Shown here: in pieces, positions 7,876 through 56,590 of the stretch
Layout: the number at the start of each line of letters is the position of its first letter
How positions within the stretch are numbered: position 1 is the first letter of the stretch
NCBI RefSeq assembly: GCF_002160865.1
Contig: NZ_NFLJ01000005.1
Location: 1 to 64,000 of the forward strand
Direction of reading: 5' to 3'
From: Massiliimicrobium timonense
GTDB lineage: Bacteria > Bacillota_I > Bacilli_A > Erysipelotrichales > Coprobacillaceae
DNA length: 64,000 nucleotides
Made by a program: the position numbers and the translations under genes
The notes under the pieces: generated by a model
Database searches by the model: none
Told to the model about the DNA's origin: nothing
What the model saw: the letters and a program-made list of their open reading frames with translations, nothing else

Positions 7876-9288
7876 TTAATTCTTTTTTAAATCATTGACA
7901 CATAGTTTTGTAAGACCATCTAGCATATATGGACTCATTTCTTTAATTGAATAAAGCTCTGGCATATAATCTTCAGGAATAAATGATAAGAGTTTATTTC
8001 TGACTTCATTCATATCATTTGTCATAGGCGAGTACACGGCAATTGCTTCAGGTCCCATAATACATATTGAAGGTAATAATGATTTTGTTACAAGCTCTAA
8101 TACACCTTCTTGCGTCCATGCCAGTTTTGCACATTCATCAGAAAATTGCATACGATGAATAAAATAACGAACTTCTCCAGCAACCCCATTTCTTCCTGTC
8201 ACAATCTGACCATGAGAAATAATACCTTGTCCTCCTACACCAAAACCAAATGGTTGTGAGTGAAAGATAATATTTTGATATTCAGGATGTTCTAATGCAA
8301 ATCCCACAACTGCAGCATTGGCATTATTACATACTAAAACTTTAATTCCATATTTCTTTTCAAATTCATTTTTTATATCCAGAATTTTTTCATCAGGTGA
8401 ATTTCTTAACTGTTGATCATCTTTAACAATCCCTGGTGTTGCAATACCAATCATATCCACATATTGATGTTTTAATAAAACAGTATCAATAATATCATAA
8501 AGATCATAAACATTTAAAGAAGGTTTGATAATCATATTATGATCAATAATTTCACAATGATCACTCAAACGATAATAAATTCTTGTTTGTGCCTTATTAT
8601 TAGAAATCACAATAGATAAAATACGATTTTCATATTCTATACAATGCGTATGATGTTTTTGCGCTTCCTGTGTTTTGTTAGTATAATACTCTTCAAGTTC
8701 ATTTTGTAGAAATCTTAAAGCCCCTGGCGCATCATATGAAGCAAAAACAGTTGTGGGAATCTGAAGGACTAATTTATCTGTTAAACTTTCTTTTAAACGA
8801 TTCAACATATAACCAATCTGTGGTGCAATGAATACAACATCATATTTATCAACTTCTTCATAAATACTTAAATAAGAAACAGCATCAAAATGATAATCCA
8901 ACCCTAACATTCCTGCCACACTATTTAAGTTCTCTGCAAACATAGACGTTGTCAAACCAGATGAGCATGATAAAAGAACTTGTAAAGTTTTTTCATTTTT
9001 TAAGCCAACTAATGTTTCTACCATTTCATCAAATAATTGTTTTGCATGATCTTCATCATTCAACTCAAAATGAAGATAGAATTTCACTGAATCATCTTTT
9101 TTAGAAACAATAGAGAACTCTACAATTGTGCTTTGTTCAATAACAGTAAAACGAATAGAAGCCTCTCCATAATCCGTAACTAATCTGATTAAAGATTCAT
9201 TATCTTCTACAATCTGATAATCATCATTATATTGTTCTTTAATCCATGATTGAAAATCAAAATCCAATTCCTTTTTCTTAGTATCCAT
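7876..9288 (-). CDS. PTS EIIB-like domain fused to a degenerate ROK domain
   Basis: 470 residues with three visible parts. Residues 1-95 form an unrecognised alpha/beta segment. Residues 100-205 look like a lactose/cellobiose-type PTS EIIB domain: QVLLSCSSGLTTSMFAENL places Cys108 where the phosphocysteine sits in EIIB. Residues 222-470 have the ROK fold: GFGVGGQGIISHGQIVTGRN then GVAGEV, and IGIATPGIV. The ROK part lacks a recognisable DxGxT phosphate loop, reads NNANAA where active kinases have NDANAA (the catalytic Asp is Asn322), and has no Cys-rich zinc motif. It is probably a non-catalytic sensor coupling sugar-PTS status to something else; this is inference. No PTS genes are nearby. 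Confidence 0.75.
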   Translation of the reverse strand: MDTKKKELDFDFQSWIKEQYNDDYQIVEDNESLIRLVTDYGEASIRFTVIEQSTIVEFSIVSKKDDSVKFYLHFELNDEDHAKQLFDEMVETLVGLKNEKTLQVLLSCSSGLTTSMFAENLNSVAGMLGLDYHFDAVSYLSIYEEVDKYDVVFIAPQIGYMLNRLKESLTDKLVLQIPTTVFASYDAPGALRFLQNELEEYYTNKTQEAQKHHTHCIEYENRILSIVISNNKAQTRIYYRLSDHCEIIDHNMIIKPSLNVYDLYDIIDTVLLKHQYVDMIGIATPGIVKDDQQLRNSPDEKILDIKNEFEKKYGIKVLVCNNANAAVVGFALEHPEYQNIIFHSQPFGFGVGGQGIISHGQIVTGRNGVAGEVRYFIHRMQFSDECAKLAWTQEGVLELVTKSLLPSICIMGPEAIAVYSPMTNDMNEVRNKLLSFIPEDYMPELYSIKEMSPYMLDGLTKLCVNDLKKN

Positions 9289-9356: not shown

Positions 9357-9393
9357 ATAAAAAAAGTAGAACAATGCTGGCATTGTTCTACAT
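9357..9393 (-). terminator. Intrinsic terminator after the Abi-like gene
   Basis: A long perfect stem on the minus strand: GTAGAACAATGC pairs with GCATTGTTCTAC around CA, followed by TTTTTTT. It insulates the EIIB-ROK gene from the Abi-like gene. Confidence 0.85.
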
Positions 9394-9544: not shown

Positions 9545-10372
9545 TCATCTGTTAAATTGTTTTTCTTTTAAGACAGAACTAGTACAAACTTCATTAAATA
9601 AAAATAAAGTTGCTATAAAATCATGGATTACTGGATTCATAATTTTTTTTCGTCTAGAATTTTTACTGATGTTTGGTATTTTTGTTAATAAAAGAACTAA
9701 TTCTTTGCTTGGTTCAATTATATTTTTTGTATTATTGTATAAATGTGTGTGAGTATAGGGCTTTCTTAAAGTGTTTAATAAGCAATTATTATGAGCTGAT
9801 GCATTTCTAATAAATTTTAAAGGCCATAACAAATGATTGATTGTTCTGGACTTATTTTCTGGATAAAGTTCGTAATATAATTCAAAAAGTTTAATAAAAT
9901 CACCAAATGAAAGGACTTCTACAATGTTCCATATAGCCCAATTATTTTGGTATTTATGAATCAAATCAGCACATGCAGAATCATTCTTTTTATGATTTAT
10001 ATTTTGTTTAATATATGGATATTTTATAAAAAGTTTATCAATAATATGATATCCATCTTCTTGATCATTGTGAGTTAAATCATTAATTAATTTTACTTTT
10101 AAAAAATGCTCTGTATCTAAAGATAGTTTGATAATATATTCCCTTAAATACATATCAAGTTTTGATAATTCCACTAAATAGGCAAAATCTAAGTTAATAT
10201 ATACATTTTTTACTTCATTGTATTCAAAAGATTTAGCGAAAGATTTTAACTTAAAGTAATATGTATGGTGTGTCAAATATTGTATAGCAGATTGCTCATT
10301 GATAATATTAAACTTAATATTTTTACTCTTTAGATTTATAATTTGTTGTGAAACTGAACACTTTGTGCGCAT
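9545..10372 (-). CDS. Abi_2-type abortive infection protein (HEPN)
   Basis: 275 residues resembling the AbiD/AbiF (Abi_2) family. N-terminal SAIQYLTHHTYYFKLKSFA and LDMYLREYIIKLSLDTEHFLK match the family's helical pattern. RNASAHN at about residue 190 is the R-x4-6-H motif of HEPN ribonucleases. Abi proteins abort phage infection, probably by RNA cleavage. Acidic residues are sparse and the gene is AT-rich, consistent with acquisition, although composition was not measured. It stands alone, with a terminator downstream and a 210-bp upstream gap; no antitoxin-like partner is adjacent. An SD (GGAGGTG) precedes the ATG. Confidence 0.75.
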   Translation of the reverse strand: MRTKCSVSQQIINLKSKNIKFNIINEQSAIQYLTHHTYYFKLKSFAKSFEYNEVKNVYINLDFAYLVELSKLDMYLREYIIKLSLDTEHFLKVKLINDLTHNDQEDGYHIIDKLFIKYPYIKQNINHKKNDSACADLIHKYQNNWAIWNIVEVLSFGDFIKLFELYYELYPENKSRTINHLLWPLKFIRNASAHNNCLLNTLRKPYTHTHLYNNTKNIIEPSKELVLLLTKIPNISKNSRRKKIMNPVIHDFIATLFLFNEVCTSSVLKEKQFNR

Positions 10373-12473: not shown

Positions 12474-14426
12474 TTAAATACTCTTTGTGACTTGATATCC
12501 TTCACTGATGGTATCTTTGATATTTCCTACCTGATGGGCATCGCCAATGATATGATAAGTTATATTCGCTTGTTTCAACATATCTTCTATAGATGAATCT
12601 GGTCGATAGCCACAGGCAAAAACCAATGTATCTGCATCATCAATTGTATAAGATTGTTGATTTTGTACATAAATGATTTGATTATTTGTCACTTGTTCCA
12701 CTTTCGCATTCACAATCATCTTGACACCTTTTTTCATGAGTCTTTGGACAAGCAATGAACGACCTGGTCCAGATTCATTCAACATGACCTCCTGTCCCAT
12801 TTCAATGATTGTTATATCACGATTTCGAGGGAAATGATCATTCACTAATGGTGCCAGATAGTCTGCCAGTTCACAGCCTACTGAACCACCACCGACAATG
12901 ACAATTTTACGTCCTGGAAAAGCACGTCCATTCAAGATATCATCACCTGTCATCCACTGTTTAAATGATGTCATAGATTGAGGGATAATAGCTTTGGCTC
13001 CCGTTGATGCGATGACTTCATAATCATGGAATTCATTTTGTAACATCTCTAAAGTCACCATTGTTTTTGTTCGTATATCAACACCTGATTGAACAAGGCG
13101 ATGACGCATCCATTTGATCACTTGGCATAAATCTTGCTTTCCAATAGGAACACTGGCAGCTTTTAAAGCACCACCAACATCATCTTCTTTTTCACAGAGG
13201 ACAACATCATGTCCTCGTTTTTTCGCAACATAGGCAGCTTCCATTCCAGCTGGACCAGCACCAATAACTAAGATTTTCTTTTTCATCAAAGATGGTTGTA
13301 ATGTATCTTCGTTTTCTAAAGCAAATGAAGGATTCATTGTACAGGCAACAGGCTTACCAAACATAATGCCATTTAAACAACGTAAGCACCCAATACATGG
13401 ACGAATATCTTCAATGCGTCCATCTTTTGCTTTATTAGCAAATTCAGGATCACAGAGATTGGCACGTCCAATCATACAGGCATCAGCTTTACCATTGGCA
13501 ATAATTTCTTCTGCCACCCAAGGTTCAACAATACGTCCCACTGTCGCAACAGGAATAGAAACATGTTTTTTAATTTCAGCTGCCAGGGCGACATGTGAAC
13601 CCATTGGTGTTCCCGGTGCTGGAATAGAACTTCCTCTGGCAATCGTTGTTCCCCCAGATACATGAAGCATATCGACACCATGAGCTTCTAATTGTTTGGC
13701 AACATAAACCATATCCGTTAAATTTAACCCACCATCACTATATTCATCACCAGAAATACGTACATCAATAATAAAGTCTTTTCCACAGGCATTTCTAATG
13801 GCTTCAATAACTTCTAAAGTCAATTTCAAACGTGCATCAATATTGCCACCATATTCATCAGTTCGTTTATTATACAGTGGTGATAAGAAACCACCTAACA
13901 ATCCATGCGCATGAGCCGCATGAACTTCAACACCATCTCCACCAGCCTTTTGTACTCTCAAAGCTGCATCAGCAAATTGTTGAATAATCACTTTCAGTTC
14001 TTCTTTTGTGACAGGACGAGGTGCTTCTTTGGCATAATAAGGCCCAACATGCGATGGGGCAATCAACTGTGGTGTTCCCGGAATAGGAAAGGCCATATAG
14101 GCAGGATGAAATAATTGAGGTAAGATTTTAGCACCATATTCATGAACACCTTCAACCAGCTTTTTCCATCCTGCAATAAAGGAATCATCATGAATCGACA
14201 TATCACCAGGCAAATAAACATAGGTTGGTTCCACTGTCACAACTTCCGTTACAAATAATCCAACACCACCCTTTGCTCGAGCTTTATAATGTTCAACAAG
14301 TTCATCTGTCACATAACCCTTATCACCTAAATTAGTTGATAAAGGTGGCATAAATAAACGATTCTTGACTGTTTGCGTTCCTATTTGAATAGGTTCAAAT
14401 AAATGGGGATATTTCACTTCATTCAA
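12474..14426 (-). CDS. Old-yellow-enzyme family NADH:flavin oxidoreductase (FadH/Bai-type)
   Basis: 650 residues: an N-terminal FMN-binding TIM barrel (1-350), a [4Fe-4S] cluster motif C-I-G-C-LRC-(12 residues)-C near 345-365, and a C-terminal FAD/NAD(P)H Rossmann pair (KKKILVIGAGPAGMEAA; KIVIVGGGSVGCELAD). This is the architecture of 2,4-dienoyl-CoA reductase, enoate reductases and BaiCD/BaiH bile acid enzymes. The segment that usually reads GYL at the catalytic Tyr reads HAHGLLGGF here, so that Tyr is absent. The substrate is an unsaturated carbonyl compound by family; which one is unknown. It follows its paralogue with a 4-nt gap. Confidence 0.85.
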   Translation of the reverse strand: MNEVKYPHLFEPIQIGTQTVKNRLFMPPLSTNLGDKGYVTDELVEHYKARAKGGVGLFVTEVVTVEPTYVYLPGDMSIHDDSFIAGWKKLVEGVHEYGAKILPQLFHPAYMAFPIPGTPQLIAPSHVGPYYAKEAPRPVTKEELKVIIQQFADAALRVQKAGGDGVEVHAAHAHGLLGGFLSPLYNKRTDEYGGNIDARLKLTLEVIEAIRNACGKDFIIDVRISGDEYSDGGLNLTDMVYVAKQLEAHGVDMLHVSGGTTIARGSSIPAPGTPMGSHVALAAEIKKHVSIPVATVGRIVEPWVAEEIIANGKADACMIGRANLCDPEFANKAKDGRIEDIRPCIGCLRCLNGIMFGKPVACTMNPSFALENEDTLQPSLMKKKILVIGAGPAGMEAAYVAKKRGHDVVLCEKEDDVGGALKAASVPIGKQDLCQVIKWMRHRLVQSGVDIRTKTMVTLEMLQNEFHDYEVIASTGAKAIIPQSMTSFKQWMTGDDILNGRAFPGRKIVIVGGGSVGCELADYLAPLVNDHFPRNRDITIIEMGQEVMLNESGPGRSLLVQRLMKKGVKMIVNAKVEQVTNNQIIYVQNQQSYTIDDADTLVFACGYRPDSSIEDMLKQANITYHIIGDAHQVGNIKDTISEGYQVTKSI

Positions 14427-14430
14427 CTCC

Positions 14431-16365
14431 TTAAATTTGATTAGCAGCTAAATAGCCTTCTTCAATCGCACGATTAATATCTGCTGCTTTTTCATGGCAG
14501 TCACCCACAACATAAACTGGGATACCTTTTTCTTCTAATAGTGATGTATCAAAAGTATTTGGTTTGGCTCCAACAGCTAAAACAACATAATCACAATCTA
14601 ATGATATTGTTCCATTTTCATTTTGGGCTTCCACTGTTGAAGATGTAATGGCAGTGACTTTCGTATTAACATATTGTTGTACACCATGTTTTTCAAAATC
14701 AGCCATCATTGTTGGTCGAACAGTTGTTGATTCTTCTTTAGCAATCGTATCCATCATTTCAACAATAGACACCTGAGCACCCATTTGTGCTAACATTTCA
14801 GCTGTTTCTGCACCAACTAAACCTCCACCAATCACAACAACACGACCATTAGCTAATTGTTCATGATTTAAGACTTTCCATGCATCATAGACATGTGGTA
14901 AATCACTTCCTGGAATAGCTGGAATCACATTAGAAGCACCTACTGCCACAATCACTGCATCAGGATTTTCATCTAAAATACATTGAGCACAGACTGTATG
15001 TCCTAATCTTAAATCAACATCTAATTCTTTCATTTCATTTGTTAAATAATGGATACCACGATTCATTTCATATTTTCTAGGTGGTACAGCTGCAATATTC
15101 AGTTGTCCTCCTAATGTTGTTTCTTTTTCAAATAACACAACATCATGTCCTTTTGTTTTCGCAACTCTGGCAGCTTCCATACCTGCTGGTCCACCGCCCA
15201 CAACAACAACTTTTTTCTTATCTTTAGCTGGTGTAATCACACGTTCATATTCATAACCATTTTCAGCATTTAATACACAGCTTAAGAACTTTCTGTTTTG
15301 AATAGAATCTGTACACCCTTTATTACACATCATACAATGACGAATACGAGAACCTTGCCCTGCTTCTAATTTTTTCACATAGTCTGGATCTGTCAATAAA
15401 GAACGTCCTAGACCGATTATATCACAAACACCATTTTCAATAAGGGCTTCACCATTCTCTGGAGTAATAATTCGTCCAACTGCAGAAACTGGAATAGACA
15501 CAGCATCCTTAATCTGTTTTGTATAAGAAGCCATGAAACAATATGGTGTTGTTCCCATTGCTGGAATTGTATCATTCATATTTCCTGTATGATTGGCTTG
15601 TCCTACATGAATCATATCTACGCCTTTTTCTTCCAAGATTTTCGCAAACTTCACAGCTTCTTCAATGAGTAAGCCACCTTTTCCTCTTAAACTTCCATCT
15701 GGATTGACAGTCACAACTGGTAACTTATAGTCAATACAAATATCTGGAGCGTATTCTTTAATTGTTTTCACAACATCTAATGCAAAACGAATTCTATTTT
15801 CAAAAGAACCACCATATTGATCTTGACGATGATTTAAAATTGTTGAACATAAAGACCCAACCAATCGATCTCCATGAACCTCAATCACATCCACACCTGC
15901 CTGATAGGCACGTTTAACACAATCACCCATTTTTCTTAAAATATCATTTAATTGTTCTTCTGTTACTTCATCAATATAATGTAACATATCATGATGCAAT
16001 TTCGCACGTGCTCCCTGCATATCTCCCTTTTTAAATAATTCAGCCAAAGCATCAACATCATATTCTGGATGAAATAACTGAATCCCTAGTTTACAGTCAT
16101 AAACATGTAAAGCCTCTGCCAGTTTTTGATAAGCTTCAATTTGTCCATCATGAAATAATTTAGGTGTTGGTGATACAGTATTGACGGGTGCTACATCACC
16201 AAGAACAATATAAGCCACTCCCCCTTGAGCAATTCTTTTATAAAAATTGTAACTTTGTTGTCCAATGCTTCCATCTCTTTCTTCATATCCTGTCGTCATT
16301 GGTGGAAACATAATCCTATTTTTTAATGTGATTTTTCCAACTTGAATTGGTTCTAATAATTTCAT
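14431..16365 (-). CDS. Old-yellow-enzyme family NADH:flavin oxidoreductase, paralogue
   Basis: 644 residues, same architecture as its downstream neighbour: TIM barrel starting LLEPIQVGKITLKNRIMFPP, iron-sulfur motif C-MM-C-NKG-C followed by a distant Cys, then VVVVGGGPAGMEAARV and RVVVIGGGLVGAETAEM dinucleotide folds. The region equivalent to the catalytic GYL reads HGDRLVGSL, so Tyr is also missing. The pair plus an upstream AraC regulator forms a substrate-responsive reductase locus. The two proteins may act on successive or alternative substrates. AGGAGG precedes the ATG. Confidence 0.85.
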   Translation of the reverse strand: MKLLEPIQVGKITLKNRIMFPPMTTGYEERDGSIGQQSYNFYKRIAQGGVAYIVLGDVAPVNTVSPTPKLFHDGQIEAYQKLAEALHVYDCKLGIQLFHPEYDVDALAELFKKGDMQGARAKLHHDMLHYIDEVTEEQLNDILRKMGDCVKRAYQAGVDVIEVHGDRLVGSLCSTILNHRQDQYGGSFENRIRFALDVVKTIKEYAPDICIDYKLPVVTVNPDGSLRGKGGLLIEEAVKFAKILEEKGVDMIHVGQANHTGNMNDTIPAMGTTPYCFMASYTKQIKDAVSIPVSAVGRIITPENGEALIENGVCDIIGLGRSLLTDPDYVKKLEAGQGSRIRHCMMCNKGCTDSIQNRKFLSCVLNAENGYEYERVITPAKDKKKVVVVGGGPAGMEAARVAKTKGHDVVLFEKETTLGGQLNIAAVPPRKYEMNRGIHYLTNEMKELDVDLRLGHTVCAQCILDENPDAVIVAVGASNVIPAIPGSDLPHVYDAWKVLNHEQLANGRVVVIGGGLVGAETAEMLAQMGAQVSIVEMMDTIAKEESTTVRPTMMADFEKHGVQQYVNTKVTAITSSTVEAQNENGTISLDCDYVVLAVGAKPNTFDTSLLEEKGIPVYVVGDCHEKAADINRAIEEGYLAANQI

Positions 16366-16436: not shown

Positions 16437-16466
16437 AAAAACATATACTTTTTCGTATATGTTTTT
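16437..16466. terminator. Bidirectional-looking hairpin after the AraC gene
   Basis: ACATATAC pairs with GTATATGT, with A-rich sequence on one side and T-rich on the other. On the minus strand it ends the AraC gene, which would then be transcribed apart from the two flavoprotein genes. Confidence 0.65.
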
Positions 16467-17353
16467 TATTTCACAAAGTTTTTATTCAAAATCATTTTCT
16501 TTTTATAATCACGAGGACTCATGCCTGTGATTTTTTTAAAAGCTTTTGACAGATGATAAGCCGAAGAATATCCCAGTTCCTGTGCCAATATATTTACATT
16601 TTTTCCCAACAGTAACTGCTTTTGAACATAAGCTATTTTTTGTTGTTGAATATAAGAGGCTGGTGGTACCTGTAAAATTTGCATAAACGCCTTATATAAT
16701 ACACTTGTTGACACCCCTAAAGATTGTGCCATGACCTGTAAACGAATAGGCTCATAGAGATGATCTTGGATATAATGAATACTTTCGTTCATTAAACTCG
16801 TATATGAGGATTGATGAATCTTATAATGTAAGTCACTGCCTCTTTTCATCTGGGCTCTTATTATAGCAACAATGATTCGCATTAAAGCGGAAGTAATCAC
16901 ACTTGAATAACCAATTTCTTTTTCCTTAGCTTCTATTAATAATCTTTCCAGCATCACCTGAAAATCAATCACTTCATCTGGATAAATCAAATGACCATGA
17001 TCTGTCAACAAAGATAAAAACTGAGGTTTTAAATAAAGTGGTTCAATATCAAAGTGAAAATAATAATAAGCATAATGATCATATCCATGATTAATGGATG
17101 TATTTAACTGAAAAGGCTCTAAAATCAAAAAACTTCCTTGTGGGCATTCATATTGACGATTACCAATAATGGTTGTAGAACCCCCTTCTCGATAATAAAC
17201 AATTTCTATATCGTCTGAAATATAACTGGCTTTTGTATCATGATCACTTTGCCATAATCCAAAATTATTGATTTGAAATGTCATTTGCCCTAATAAATCT
17301 GTTAATTCATCACCTTCAAATTGTGAATACTGTTGCTTTGTTTCAATATACAT
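16466..17353 (-). CDS. AraC-family transcriptional regulator
   Basis: About 295 residues: an N-terminal cupin-like sensor (residues 40-110, with ECPQGSFLILEPFQLNTS) and a C-terminal double HTH (about 195-290) ending LAQELGYSSAYHLSKAFKKI then TGMSPRDYK, the classic AraC signature. The third candidate start (17353) is chosen by AGGTG spacing; a GTG and an ATG just upstream are possible. It lies upstream of, and in the same direction as, the two old-yellow-enzyme genes, and is the obvious candidate for their activator, responding to their substrate. Confidence 0.88.
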   Translation of the reverse strand: MYIETKQQYSQFEGDELTDLLGQMTFQINNFGLWQSDHDTKASYISDDIEIVYYREGGSTTIIGNRQYECPQGSFLILEPFQLNTSINHGYDHYAYYYFHFDIEPLYLKPQFLSLLTDHGHLIYPDEVIDFQVMLERLLIEAKEKEIGYSSVITSALMRIIVAIIRAQMKRGSDLHYKIHQSSYTSLMNESIHYIQDHLYEPIRLQVMAQSLGVSTSVLYKAFMQILQVPPASYIQQQKIAYVQKQLLLGKNVNILAQELGYSSAYHLSKAFKKITGMSPRDYKKKMILNKNFVK

Positions 17354-17524
17354 ACACATCACCTATCTCTATTGTATTAAAATTTTCTCTTGAATAAAAT
17401 GACAAATTTTTTTCATTCATGTCTTCTTTTTAATCTTTCTTTTGACTATTTTGTTCTTATTTTATACAACATCATCCATTCTTTTCATTATGTCTTATAA
17501 TATAAACAAAGGAGAGTGAAAAGG

Positions 17525-18475: not shown

Positions 18476-18512
18476 TTGCTTATAATATGATTTGATGAAA
18501 GGATTGATTGGA

Positions 18513-18956
18513 ATGGGTGTAAACTATTTTACTGATGAACAAATTAAAATACTCAAGGATAATCCATATATTGAAAAAATATCTTACAAAAGCATTAAAT
18601 ACTCCCAAAAGTTTAAAATGGAGTTCTGGTCACGCTATTCACAAGGAGAAGCCCCTTCTTCCATACTTTCTTCCTTTGATATTGATCCACATATTCTTGG
18701 ACCAAAACGCATAAGTAATATTGTTCAACGAATAAAGAAGGAAGCAGAACGCTTAGAAGGATTTGAAGATACCAGAAAACACAATGCAGGTCGCCCTAGA
18801 ACAAGAGACATGTCCCCCGAAGAAAAGATTGCTTATCTTGAACATAAGATTGCCTATCAAAAACAGGAAATAGAGTTTCTAAAAAAAATAAGATCACTGG
18901 AGAGGGAAGCCTATTGGAAACTGCAGAAGAAAAATACAAAATCATCGAAGAAATGA
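18513..18956 (+). CDS. IS3-family transposase OrfA (HTH)
   Basis: 147 residues: an N-terminal DNA-binding domain (about 20-90, including KFKMEFWSRYSQGEAPSSIL) and a C-terminal coiled coil (EEKIAYLEHKIAYQKQEIEF) typical of the leucine zipper through which OrfA multimerises. The ATG at 18513 is chosen because AAAGGA lies 9 nt upstream; ATG 18495 is possible but has no SD. Its 3' end overlaps orfB, and a slippery heptamer at 18881-18887 would shift ribosomes by -1 to make the OrfAB fusion transposase. Confidence 0.85.
   Translation: MGVNYFTDEQIKILKDNPYIEKISYKSIKYSQKFKMEFWSRYSQGEAPSSILSSFDIDPHILGPKRISNIVQRIKKEAERLEGFEDTRKHNAGRPRTRDMSPEEKIAYLEHKIAYQKQEIEFLKKIRSLEREAYWKLQKKNTKSSKK
18881..18887 (+). 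other. Programmed -1 frameshift site (A AAA AAA)
   Basis: In the orfA frame the codons read CTA AAA AAA ATA, giving the canonical slippery heptamer. After a -1 slip the next codon is AAT, and the frame runs open into orfB (TTG at 18914) without a stop. Confidence 0.85.
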
Positions 18957-19846
18957 TTTCTCGAGATGACAATCTTCTCAACATTACCAGATTATGTGAA
19001 ATTGCAGAAGTTTCCAGAAGTGGCTTCTACAACTGGAAAAATAACTGCAATAAGCGTCAGCAGAAAGAACAGCGGGACAAGAACGATTTTGAACTCATAT
19101 TGAAGGCATATCAGTACAGAGGATATGATAAAGGAGCAAGAAGCATTCACATGCATCTGCTGCACATGGGAGTAAGGATGAATATCAAAAAAATAAGGAG
19201 GCTCATGAAAAAATATGGACTTTTCTGCAAAATAAGAAAAGCCAATCCATATAGAAGAATGGCAAAAGCAATAAAAACAAATAATATTGCCCCCAATGTT
19301 GTCAATCGTGATTTCATACAGGAGCCAAGAATAGTCATATTAACCGATATTACATATCTCTTTTATGGGAAAGAAAAAAGAAAAGCATATCTATCGGTCA
19401 TGAAGGATGCATTTACCAATGAGATACTATCATATGTTGTCAGCGAATCATTGGAGATTGACTTTGTGTTAATGACTGTAAAACAACTGTTTGAAAAGCA
19501 TGGAGCGACAATCAAAACAAACAAGACGATATGCCATAGCGACCAGGGCATTCATTACACCAGTATAGATTTTCAAAAGCTGCTCAAGGACAAAGGATTG
19601 AGGCAATCAATGTCAAGAAGGGGCAACTGCTGGGATAATGCACCACAGGAATCCTTTTTTGGTCATATGAAAGATGAAATAGATATAAGCAGGTGCAACA
19701 CTTTCAATGACCTTAAAGCAGTTATAGATGATTATATAGATTACTACAATAACGAAAGGTATCAGTGGGACCTGGCAAAACTGTCACCTTCAGAATATTA
19801 TCAGTACTGGCTGTCAGATATATATCCAATAGATATAAAAAAATGA
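18914..19846 (+). CDS. IS3-family transposase OrfB (DDE integrase core)
   Basis: 310 residues in the -1 frame relative to orfA. It contains the HTH_21-like segment (YQYRGYDKGARSIHMHLLHM) and the rve integrase core, with the first catalytic Asp in ILTDITYL, the second in CHSDQGIHYTS, and the Glu in NCWDNAPQESFFGHMKDE. All three DDE positions are intact, so the element could be active. The listed start is a TTG; expression is more likely as an OrfAB fusion from the start at 18513 through the frameshift. Confidence 0.93.
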   Translation: METAEEKYKIIEEMISRDDNLLNITRLCEIAEVSRSGFYNWKNNCNKRQQKEQRDKNDFELILKAYQYRGYDKGARSIHMHLLHMGVRMNIKKIRRLMKKYGLFCKIRKANPYRRMAKAIKTNNIAPNVVNRDFIQEPRIVILTDITYLFYGKEKRKAYLSVMKDAFTNEILSYVVSESLEIDFVLMTVKQLFEKHGATIKTNKTICHSDQGIHYTSIDFQKLLKDKGLRQSMSRRGNCWDNAPQESFFGHMKDEIDISRCNTFNDLKAVIDDYIDYYNNERYQWDLAKLSPSEYYQYWLSDIYPIDIKK

Positions 19847-55508: not shown

Positions 55509-56396
55509 TTATGAATTGACTGTGAAGAAATGATAGAGTGCTCCTAATAAATTAGCATCATTATGATATTGACAAGTTAAAACAACAGGACGTATTTTCG
55601 CATGTGTAAAACGACTAAAAATGACATCCAAACGCTGATTCACTTCATCTAATAAATCTTCTCTAATACTAATTCCTCCACCAATGACAATCTTTTGTGG
55701 ATCATAGGCATATTGCAAATTATAAATACCATTTGCTAAAACATAATAATACTTATCCACATATTTTTCATAAATAGGATCATCATGATAATGATCAAAA
55801 ATTTCCTTACCATCCAAAGAAGATACATCAACACCTTTTTCTCTAGCAACCCCTCTAACAACTGCCATAGTAGAACCCACATCTGACCATGTATACATTT
55901 CATGTGTATCAAAATCAAACTGTGCAATCATATAACCAAATTCTCCACCATGTAAATGTTCACCTTTATGAATACGACGATCCTTAACAACAGCTCCACC
56001 AATACCTGTTCCACTGACAATAAAACAACAATCTTGAACATCACTTGCTGCTCCTTTCCAGACTTCAGCTAAAGCAGCACAATTGGCATCATTTTCCATT
56101 TCAACAGGAACATTTAATCTCTTTTCTAGGTCTTCTTTAATATGTGGTCCATGTATATAATCAATCGCACTTGAACCACCAATCACACCTTTTTCACTAT
56201 CAACAGCACCAGGCATACTTAAAGCTACACCTTTTAAACTTTGATGACTAGAAAATTCATCAACAATCACTTGATACATATCTTCTATCGTTGGAGGCAC
56301 TTTAACCTTCTTTGCTTCATAAATTTGACCATCTTCATCTAAAACAGCCATTTTAATAGATGTTCCACCAACATCCACACATAAATATTTCTTCAT
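55509..56396 (-). CDS. ROK-family sugar kinase (glucokinase-like)
   Basis: About 295 residues. YLCVDVGGTSIKMAVL is the phosphate loop, MENDANCAALAE holds the catalytic Asp, SGTGIGGAVV binds the phosphate, and GGEFGYM follows, but the Cys-rich zinc motif of many ROK kinases is absent. Likely a cytosolic glucose or N-acetylhexosamine kinase; the exact sugar is not evident. The ATG at 56396 has AAAGG 8 nt upstream. It is a useful contrast with the degenerate ROK domain at 7876-9288, which lacks these residues. Confidence 0.9.
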   Translation of the reverse strand: MKKYLCVDVGGTSIKMAVLDEDGQIYEAKKVKVPPTIEDMYQVIVDEFSSHQSLKGVALSMPGAVDSEKGVIGGSSAIDYIHGPHIKEDLEKRLNVPVEMENDANCAALAEVWKGAASDVQDCCFIVSGTGIGGAVVKDRRIHKGEHLHGGEFGYMIAQFDFDTHEMYTWSDVGSTMAVVRGVAREKGVDVSSLDGKEIFDHYHDDPIYEKYVDKYYYVLANGIYNLQYAYDPQKIVIGGGISIREDLLDEVNQRLDVIFSRFTHAKIRPVVLTCQYHNDANLLGALYHFFTVNS

Positions 56397-56590
56397 TTCA
56401 TTCACCTTTCTTTTTTTATTTCATTGCTATTATATCATTAAACAAACTTCTCTGTGAATACCTAAAAATTCCTTTTCATTATATATCCAAGTCACACCAT
56501 ATATCTCATAAAATAACCCATCTTTTTTAACAAAAAAACCAATAATAACTATCTTATCACAAGCTATTACGTATTTAAAAACGAAAATAA

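Follow-up and report, generated by a model that had tools for sequence, protein, structure and literature searches.

In the 64-kb window, by which we mean the whole stretch of DNA analysed, the coding sequence at 7876-9288 on the minus strand starts with ATG, carries the ribosome-binding-like sequence GAGGAAAA directly upstream of this start and encodes a protein of 470 amino acids, in which an N-terminal domain (N-domain), an EIIB-like domain and a ROK-like pseudokinase domain are joined. This three-part architecture, already proposed in the initial annotation, was confirmed by translation of the open reading frame, by orthologues, by the AF2 model of the N-domain and by Pfam matches to PTS_IIB (residues 104-182, E 5.7e-9) and ROK (residues 273-373, E 7.7e-11), both above cut-off. 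In NCBIfam, lactose/cellobiose IIB was the top match (E 1.3e-15) and ROK kinases were matched only partially, with no match passing the cut-off. The fusion gene is flanked by an Abi-like gene and fmt. A terminator-like hairpin upstream of it (9366-9391, minus strand; consensus match only, one found versus 0.9 expected by chance) suggests that the gene may have its own transcription start. No PTS genes were recognised within the window and no EIIC beside the fusion gene, so that the previously noted lack of adjacent PTS genes is true for this gene, but it is false for many paralogues.

Several further features of the window were recorded. The Abi_2 abortive-infection-like gene just upstream (9545-10372, minus strand) encodes 275 amino acids and appears shortened, as its counterpart in Massilimicrobiota sp. 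An134 (L031, 6918-7868) has a similar start and 316 amino acids. A tandem pair of old-yellow-enzyme/2-enoate reductase-like ORFs (12474-16365, minus strand) adjoins an AraC-like regulator (16466-17362), and two overlapping ORFs at 18492-19846 (plus strand) resemble an IS3-family transposase pair (orfA/orfB). At 55509-56405 (minus strand) the window encodes another ROK protein, a kinase whose DVGGT loop is intact and which could serve as an active control.

Domains and motifs of the fusion protein

In the AF2 model, for which four orthologues were used, the N-domain was good, the EIIB part usable and the ROK part of low confidence beyond residue 320. The N-domain (residues 8-98; 8995-9267, minus strand) consists of a helix, five strands and a helix in the model of residues 1-101 (mean pLDDT 88), which contains no HTH; together with the absence of any HTH family from the protein, this bears out the earlier statement that there is no DNA-binding domain. 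Searched against Pfam, the N-domain gave no family above cut-off, with TriTu as a sub-threshold match (E 0.03-0.05), and Foldseek of the model returned nothing significant and no match better than E 0.19. The top row of the structural aligner was likewise a TriTu immunity protein (Z 8.3, borderline; rmsd 2.4 over 79 residues; Foldseek E 0.41). A profile of the N-domain run against the PDB returned short PPR-repeat matches only, none of which passes by itself. N-domain and EIIB also occur without ROK as stand-alone genes of about 200 amino acids.

The lactose/cellobiose-type PTS EIIB domain (residues 102-205; 8674-8985, minus strand; PF02302) superimposes on E. coli IIB-cellobiose 1iib with Z 16.8 and rmsd 1.4 over 103 residues; further IIB proteins were matched too. 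Both the EIIB fold and the CxxGxxT cysteine loop are present, Cys108 (codon 8965-8967, minus strand), the presumed phosphorylation site, being situated within CSSGLTTS. Cys108, Gly111, Thr113, Thr114 and Ala155-Pro156-Gln157 are invariant in all 37 full-length members (13 orthologues and 24 paralogues), and the cysteine is likewise found in 23/23 of a wider orthologue set, so the assignment of an EIIB module with Cys108 stands.

The ROK-like domain (residues 222-470; 7879-8625, minus strand; PF00480) was recognised in the AF2 model by residues 217-339, which align with the N-lobes of both ROK kinases and ROK repressors at Z 9-12 over 99-120 residues; a profile search with the fusion family also matched both kinases and repressors. 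The suggested fold search was therefore successful for EIIB, as 1iib, and for the ROK N-lobe, but left the N-domain without a significant Foldseek match. As described in the initial annotation, residues 321-326 read NNANAA (8311-8328, minus strand), no DxGxT is present and AGEV is kept (G371, E372). Asn322, in place of the catalytic Asp, was found in 23/23 orthologues, but 21/24 paralogues keep Asp; the described loss of this residue thus holds for the orthologue clade, where the change is fixed, and does not extend to most paralogues. DxGxT was absent from the ROK-domain start of every fused member by pattern search and alignment, and the sole match to the pattern among fused proteins (DVGAT in L021) falls close to the EIIB/ROK boundary and not within the ROK domain. 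Among proteins from the same genomes the loop is present in 8/8 kinases (two read EAGGT) and in none of the regulators. The survey of homologues proposed earlier hence yielded an invariant Cys108, Asn322 in every orthologue and no fused member with DxGxT in its ROK domain.

The zinc CxCGxxGC cluster is typical of ROK kinases, though not universal, and the sugar site of these kinases is lined by Asn, Asp, both Glu and one His. The CxCGxxGC pattern was not found in the fusion protein, which is a weak discriminator as it was also missed in 7/8 kinases, and the cluster is absent from all fused members and from related HTH-bearing ROK regulators. The reported absence of the cluster was correct for the cysteines, but the Glu of the motif is kept: Glu398 (codon 8095-8097, minus strand), another sugar-ligand position, aligns with the Glu of CxCGxxGCxE in 2qm1 and is retained in 34/37 members. 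Glu372 (codon 8173-8175, minus strand) in the AGE motif, also a sugar-ligand position in ROK proteins, is kept in 35/37 and Asn321 in 36/37 members, and the position of the His ligand is mostly Tyr or Phe across the fused family. As N321, E372 and E398 are kept, the His and the zinc cysteines are gone and Asp is replaced by Asn, a modified sugar pocket without kinase chemistry is plausible for the ROK part. This agrees with the earlier view of an altered ROK domain that may still bind a ligand, the sugar pocket being partly retained.

Conservation, ancestry and genomic neighbourhoods

The 23 orthologues share 40-100% identity with the fusion protein, the lowest values being found in a sister family, and all keep Cys108, Asn321, Asn322 and Glu372; a Massilimicrobiota genome carries the same gene at 98% identity. 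Comparison with three congeners gave dN/dS values of 0.18, 0.11 and 0.12 for the gene and low values in each domain, the ROK part being conserved as strongly as the EIIB part. With these residues fixed in 23/23 orthologues and dN/dS at about 0.11-0.18, architecture and motif state are not due to chance: the substitution pattern indicates that the fusion protein is under purifying selection, and in the sequences compared Asn322 is a fixed trait specific to this orthologue clade. Among 316 genomes of the order, 22 have an orthologue above the E 1e-100 line. Coprobacillaceae genomes each contain several full-length paralogues with about 30-37% identity to the fusion protein, so that the fused family is expanded there; full-length proteins were also found in a few representatives of one further family within this order, with no full-length match elsewhere in the phylum in a sample of 392 genomes and no relatives on viral contigs.

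The origin of the fusion is explained by split gene pairs. Four other genomes (loci L046, L051, L081 and L082) have a ROK regulator gene immediately after, or slightly overlapping, the end of an N-EIIB gene; the N-terminus of this regulator takes the place of the EIIB part, and the halves show 28-38% identity each to the fusion protein. Pfam HTH_24 passes in the split ROK gene of L082 (E 8e-7) and is sub-threshold in L046 (E 0.002), the regulator of which has NagC as NCBIfam top match over residues 3-236, HTH included; no Pfam HTH model passes for L051 and L081, in which the N-terminal region is similar in length and appearance. L038 was rejected as a split pair, as it is a broken fused gene with a ROK part lacking an HTH. 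The ROK tree comprised 51 domains, including those of 27 fused proteins, four split regulators and eight kinases; in it the fused proteins form one clade (100/99) with the split regulators as sister (100/98), surrounded by HTH-ROK regulators and with the kinases outside (100/100). The N-EIIB tree also shows one fused clade, with weaker support (91/66) and stand-alone rows unresolved.

From these data, the simplest history is that the fusion protein arose from a NagC/XylR-type ROK regulator that lost its HTH and was joined to its N-EIIB neighbour: an ancestral NagC-like regulator would have stood beside an N-EIIB gene, and a single fusion would have deleted the N-EIIB stop and the regulator HTH. 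The fused gene may instead have been split into two genes later, against which speaks that the outgroups carry an HTH. A recently inactivated kinase was rejected from the placement in the ROK tree and because the DxGxT loop is missing across the whole regulator lineage. The claim that the fusion protein itself lost its catalytic apparatus therefore had to be given up; as neither the loop nor the zinc cluster occurs in any fused member or in the related, ancestral HTH-ROK regulators, kinase competence was lost in the regulator ancestor.

Orthologue neighbours vary between genera and most lack PTS genes. A conserved operon partner was rejected, since fmt is a neighbour genus-wide only and other orthologues are placed elsewhere. 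In L130 (5808-8152, minus strand), a distant orthologue has an intact ROK sugar kinase gene 23 bases downstream, so that pseudo-ROK and real ROK may act together; other orthologues have a divergent maltose-acetyltransferase-like gene upstream (L129) or a GH1-like gene at about 3.5 kb (L133). Links are clearer for the paralogues, of which neighbourhood counts are descriptive only as seeds were drawn partly from these loci: in L084 (Pfam-confirmed) the fused gene shares an operon with two small EIIB genes ahead of it and an RpiR gene behind it, and L106 has the same order. Some are found within PTS clusters (L042, L087 and L043, the last in a BglG-EIIBC-EIIA cluster), and that of L047 is next to GH1. 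Across three complete genomes, a lac-type EIIB gene was present within 5 kb of 4/13 family genes versus 0.76 expected (p 0.005). The corresponding EIIC statistic was discarded, as its EIIC set was incomplete and lacked, at the least, the EIIBC that adjoins the fused gene of L043. The genome of the window contains one lac-type EIIA gene.

Two additional gene associations were observed. A PHP-like phosphatase gene recurs behind HTH-ROK regulators that lack the kinase motifs (L074 1580-3440, L078 5790-7737, L080 5934-7816, L083 6540-8457), and L041 and L119 likewise have such a gene immediately next to their fused gene. In four genomes, the genes of one paralogue group have a small P-loop ATPase-like gene immediately downstream (L034 4009-4437, L037 9241-9669, L042 8057-8485, L086 6480-6908).

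Proposed function and rival explanations

A PTS-controlled co-regulator is the best fit to the regulator origin, the invariant EIIB cysteine and the lack of both HTH and kinase loop. We consider it about 50% probable that the fusion protein is a cytoplasmic, PTS-linked co-regulator acting via protein contacts, an HTH-less ROK descendant fused to N-EIIB, for which we infer phosphorylation, ligand, partner and direction of control. At low sugar flux, Cys108 would be phosphorylated by a lactose/cellobiose-class EIIA or by a neighbouring small EIIB, and at high flux it would be dephosphorylated, while the kinase-dead ROK domain would bind a sugar or sugar phosphate. Both inputs would set the contacts with a DNA-binding partner, for example an HTH-ROK or RpiR regulator, and the protein would act as co- or anti-repressor reporting sugar-uptake status to other regulators. 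The regulatory class as such is moderately supported, and the signalling role suggested in the initial annotation is still the most likely reading in view of regulator ancestry and invariant Cys.

An auxiliary PTS EIIB, which would carry or take up phosphate for a transporter with the ROK part only as scaffold or binding site for the incoming sugar, would agree with the intact EIIB site and with the paralogues in PTS clusters (L043, L042, L087). We regard this as unlikely, as the ROK part is regulator-derived and as conserved as EIIB, and as an EIIC neighbour is lacking for the gene studied here and for the majority of its orthologues. The fusion protein could also bind DNA itself, if the alpha-beta5-alpha N-domain had replaced the HTH and EIIB and ROK were its sensors; descent of the ROK part from DNA-binding regulators and the lack of a significant Foldseek or above-cut-off Pfam match of the N-domain to a known fold would allow for this. 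However, the N-domain model has no HTH, its top structural neighbour is the borderline immunity protein match rather than a DNA-binding protein, and the same domain is found in split N-EIIB proteins whose partner has its own HTH (for L051 and L081 Pfam did not confirm it, the region being HTH-like), which makes DNA binding by the N-domain unlikely.

Dihydroxyacetone kinase is a PTS-fed soluble kinase and as such a model for a soluble phosphotransferase in which the EIIB Cys~P replaces ATP and phosphorylates a sugar in the ROK pocket. Loss of the ATP-loop motifs with sugar-ligand positions kept, and the Asp base retained in 21/24 paralogues, would fit such a reaction, which is nevertheless improbable for the window protein given its regulator ancestry, the lost ROK His ligand and Asn as base in this protein and all 23 orthologues. 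Very improbable, too, is a variant in which the Asp-bearing paralogues would be membrane-free PTS phosphotransferases, with a ROK pocket working without ATP, and the Asn322 clade their non-catalytic sensor version. A functionless, degenerating relic of a sugar kinase, as the several missing kinase motifs might indicate, can hardly be reconciled with dN/dS of 0.11-0.18 for the whole gene, low values per domain and residues fixed in 23 orthologues.

Comparison with known systems

The main known case of a link between a ROK repressor and a PTS EIIB is E. coli Mlc, in which separate proteins from unrelated genes are involved. Here evolution appears to have joined the two, first as neighbouring genes and next in one chain, with the DNA-binding part discarded. 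As split and fused forms and many paralogues occur in the same gut bacteria, the regulatory logic becomes comparable between versions, and the fixed natural Asp-to-Asn change separates sugar sensing from kinase chemistry. This would also explain proteins likely annotated merely as 'PTS IIB' or 'ROK family'. The open-licence literature searched yielded no description of an EIIB-ROK fusion, and the pairing appears undescribed.

Fold and active-site cysteine loop are the same as in lactose/cellobiose PTS EIIB proteins (CelA, ChbB; 1iib, 1h9c), from which the fusion protein differs in that its EIIB is embedded in 470 amino acids with N- and ROK domains, usually without adjacent EIIC/EIIA. With the ROK sugar kinases GlcK, NanK and BglK it shares the N-lobe fold and several sugar-ligand positions, but it lacks DxGxT, zinc cluster and catalytic Asp and falls outside the kinase clade. 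In CelR/MtlR PRD regulators, control is exerted by the phosphorylatable cysteine of a regulatory EIIB(Gat)-like domain (PMC3478281); unlike the fusion protein, these have HTH, PRD and EIIA domains, an EIIB of another class and no ROK. MecR2 of S. aureus is derived from a ROK (XylR) repressor and acts by protein contact with MecI, its N315 variant being without HTH (PMC3406092), and thus resembles the fusion protein, but it has no EIIB or N-domain and its target is the MecI repressor. In E. coli, the EIIB-bearing transporter EIICB-Glc, when dephosphorylated, sequesters the ROK repressor Mlc (PMC3901232). Mlc and NagC lack the kinase loop as the fusion protein does, the split relatives of the fusion family match NagC over HTH and ROK, and control through an EIIB module is the proposed shared logic. 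In contrast to Mlc/NagC, the fusion protein has no HTH or membrane part and carries its EIIB in the same chain; this EIIB is of the lactose/cellobiose class and Mlc binds a glucose-type EIIB, so that the parallel is an analogy only. As precedents, CelR/MtlR, MecR2 and Mlc show that each proposed step is possible in principle, and the fusion architecture is a new form of a known PTS-ROK regulatory logic.
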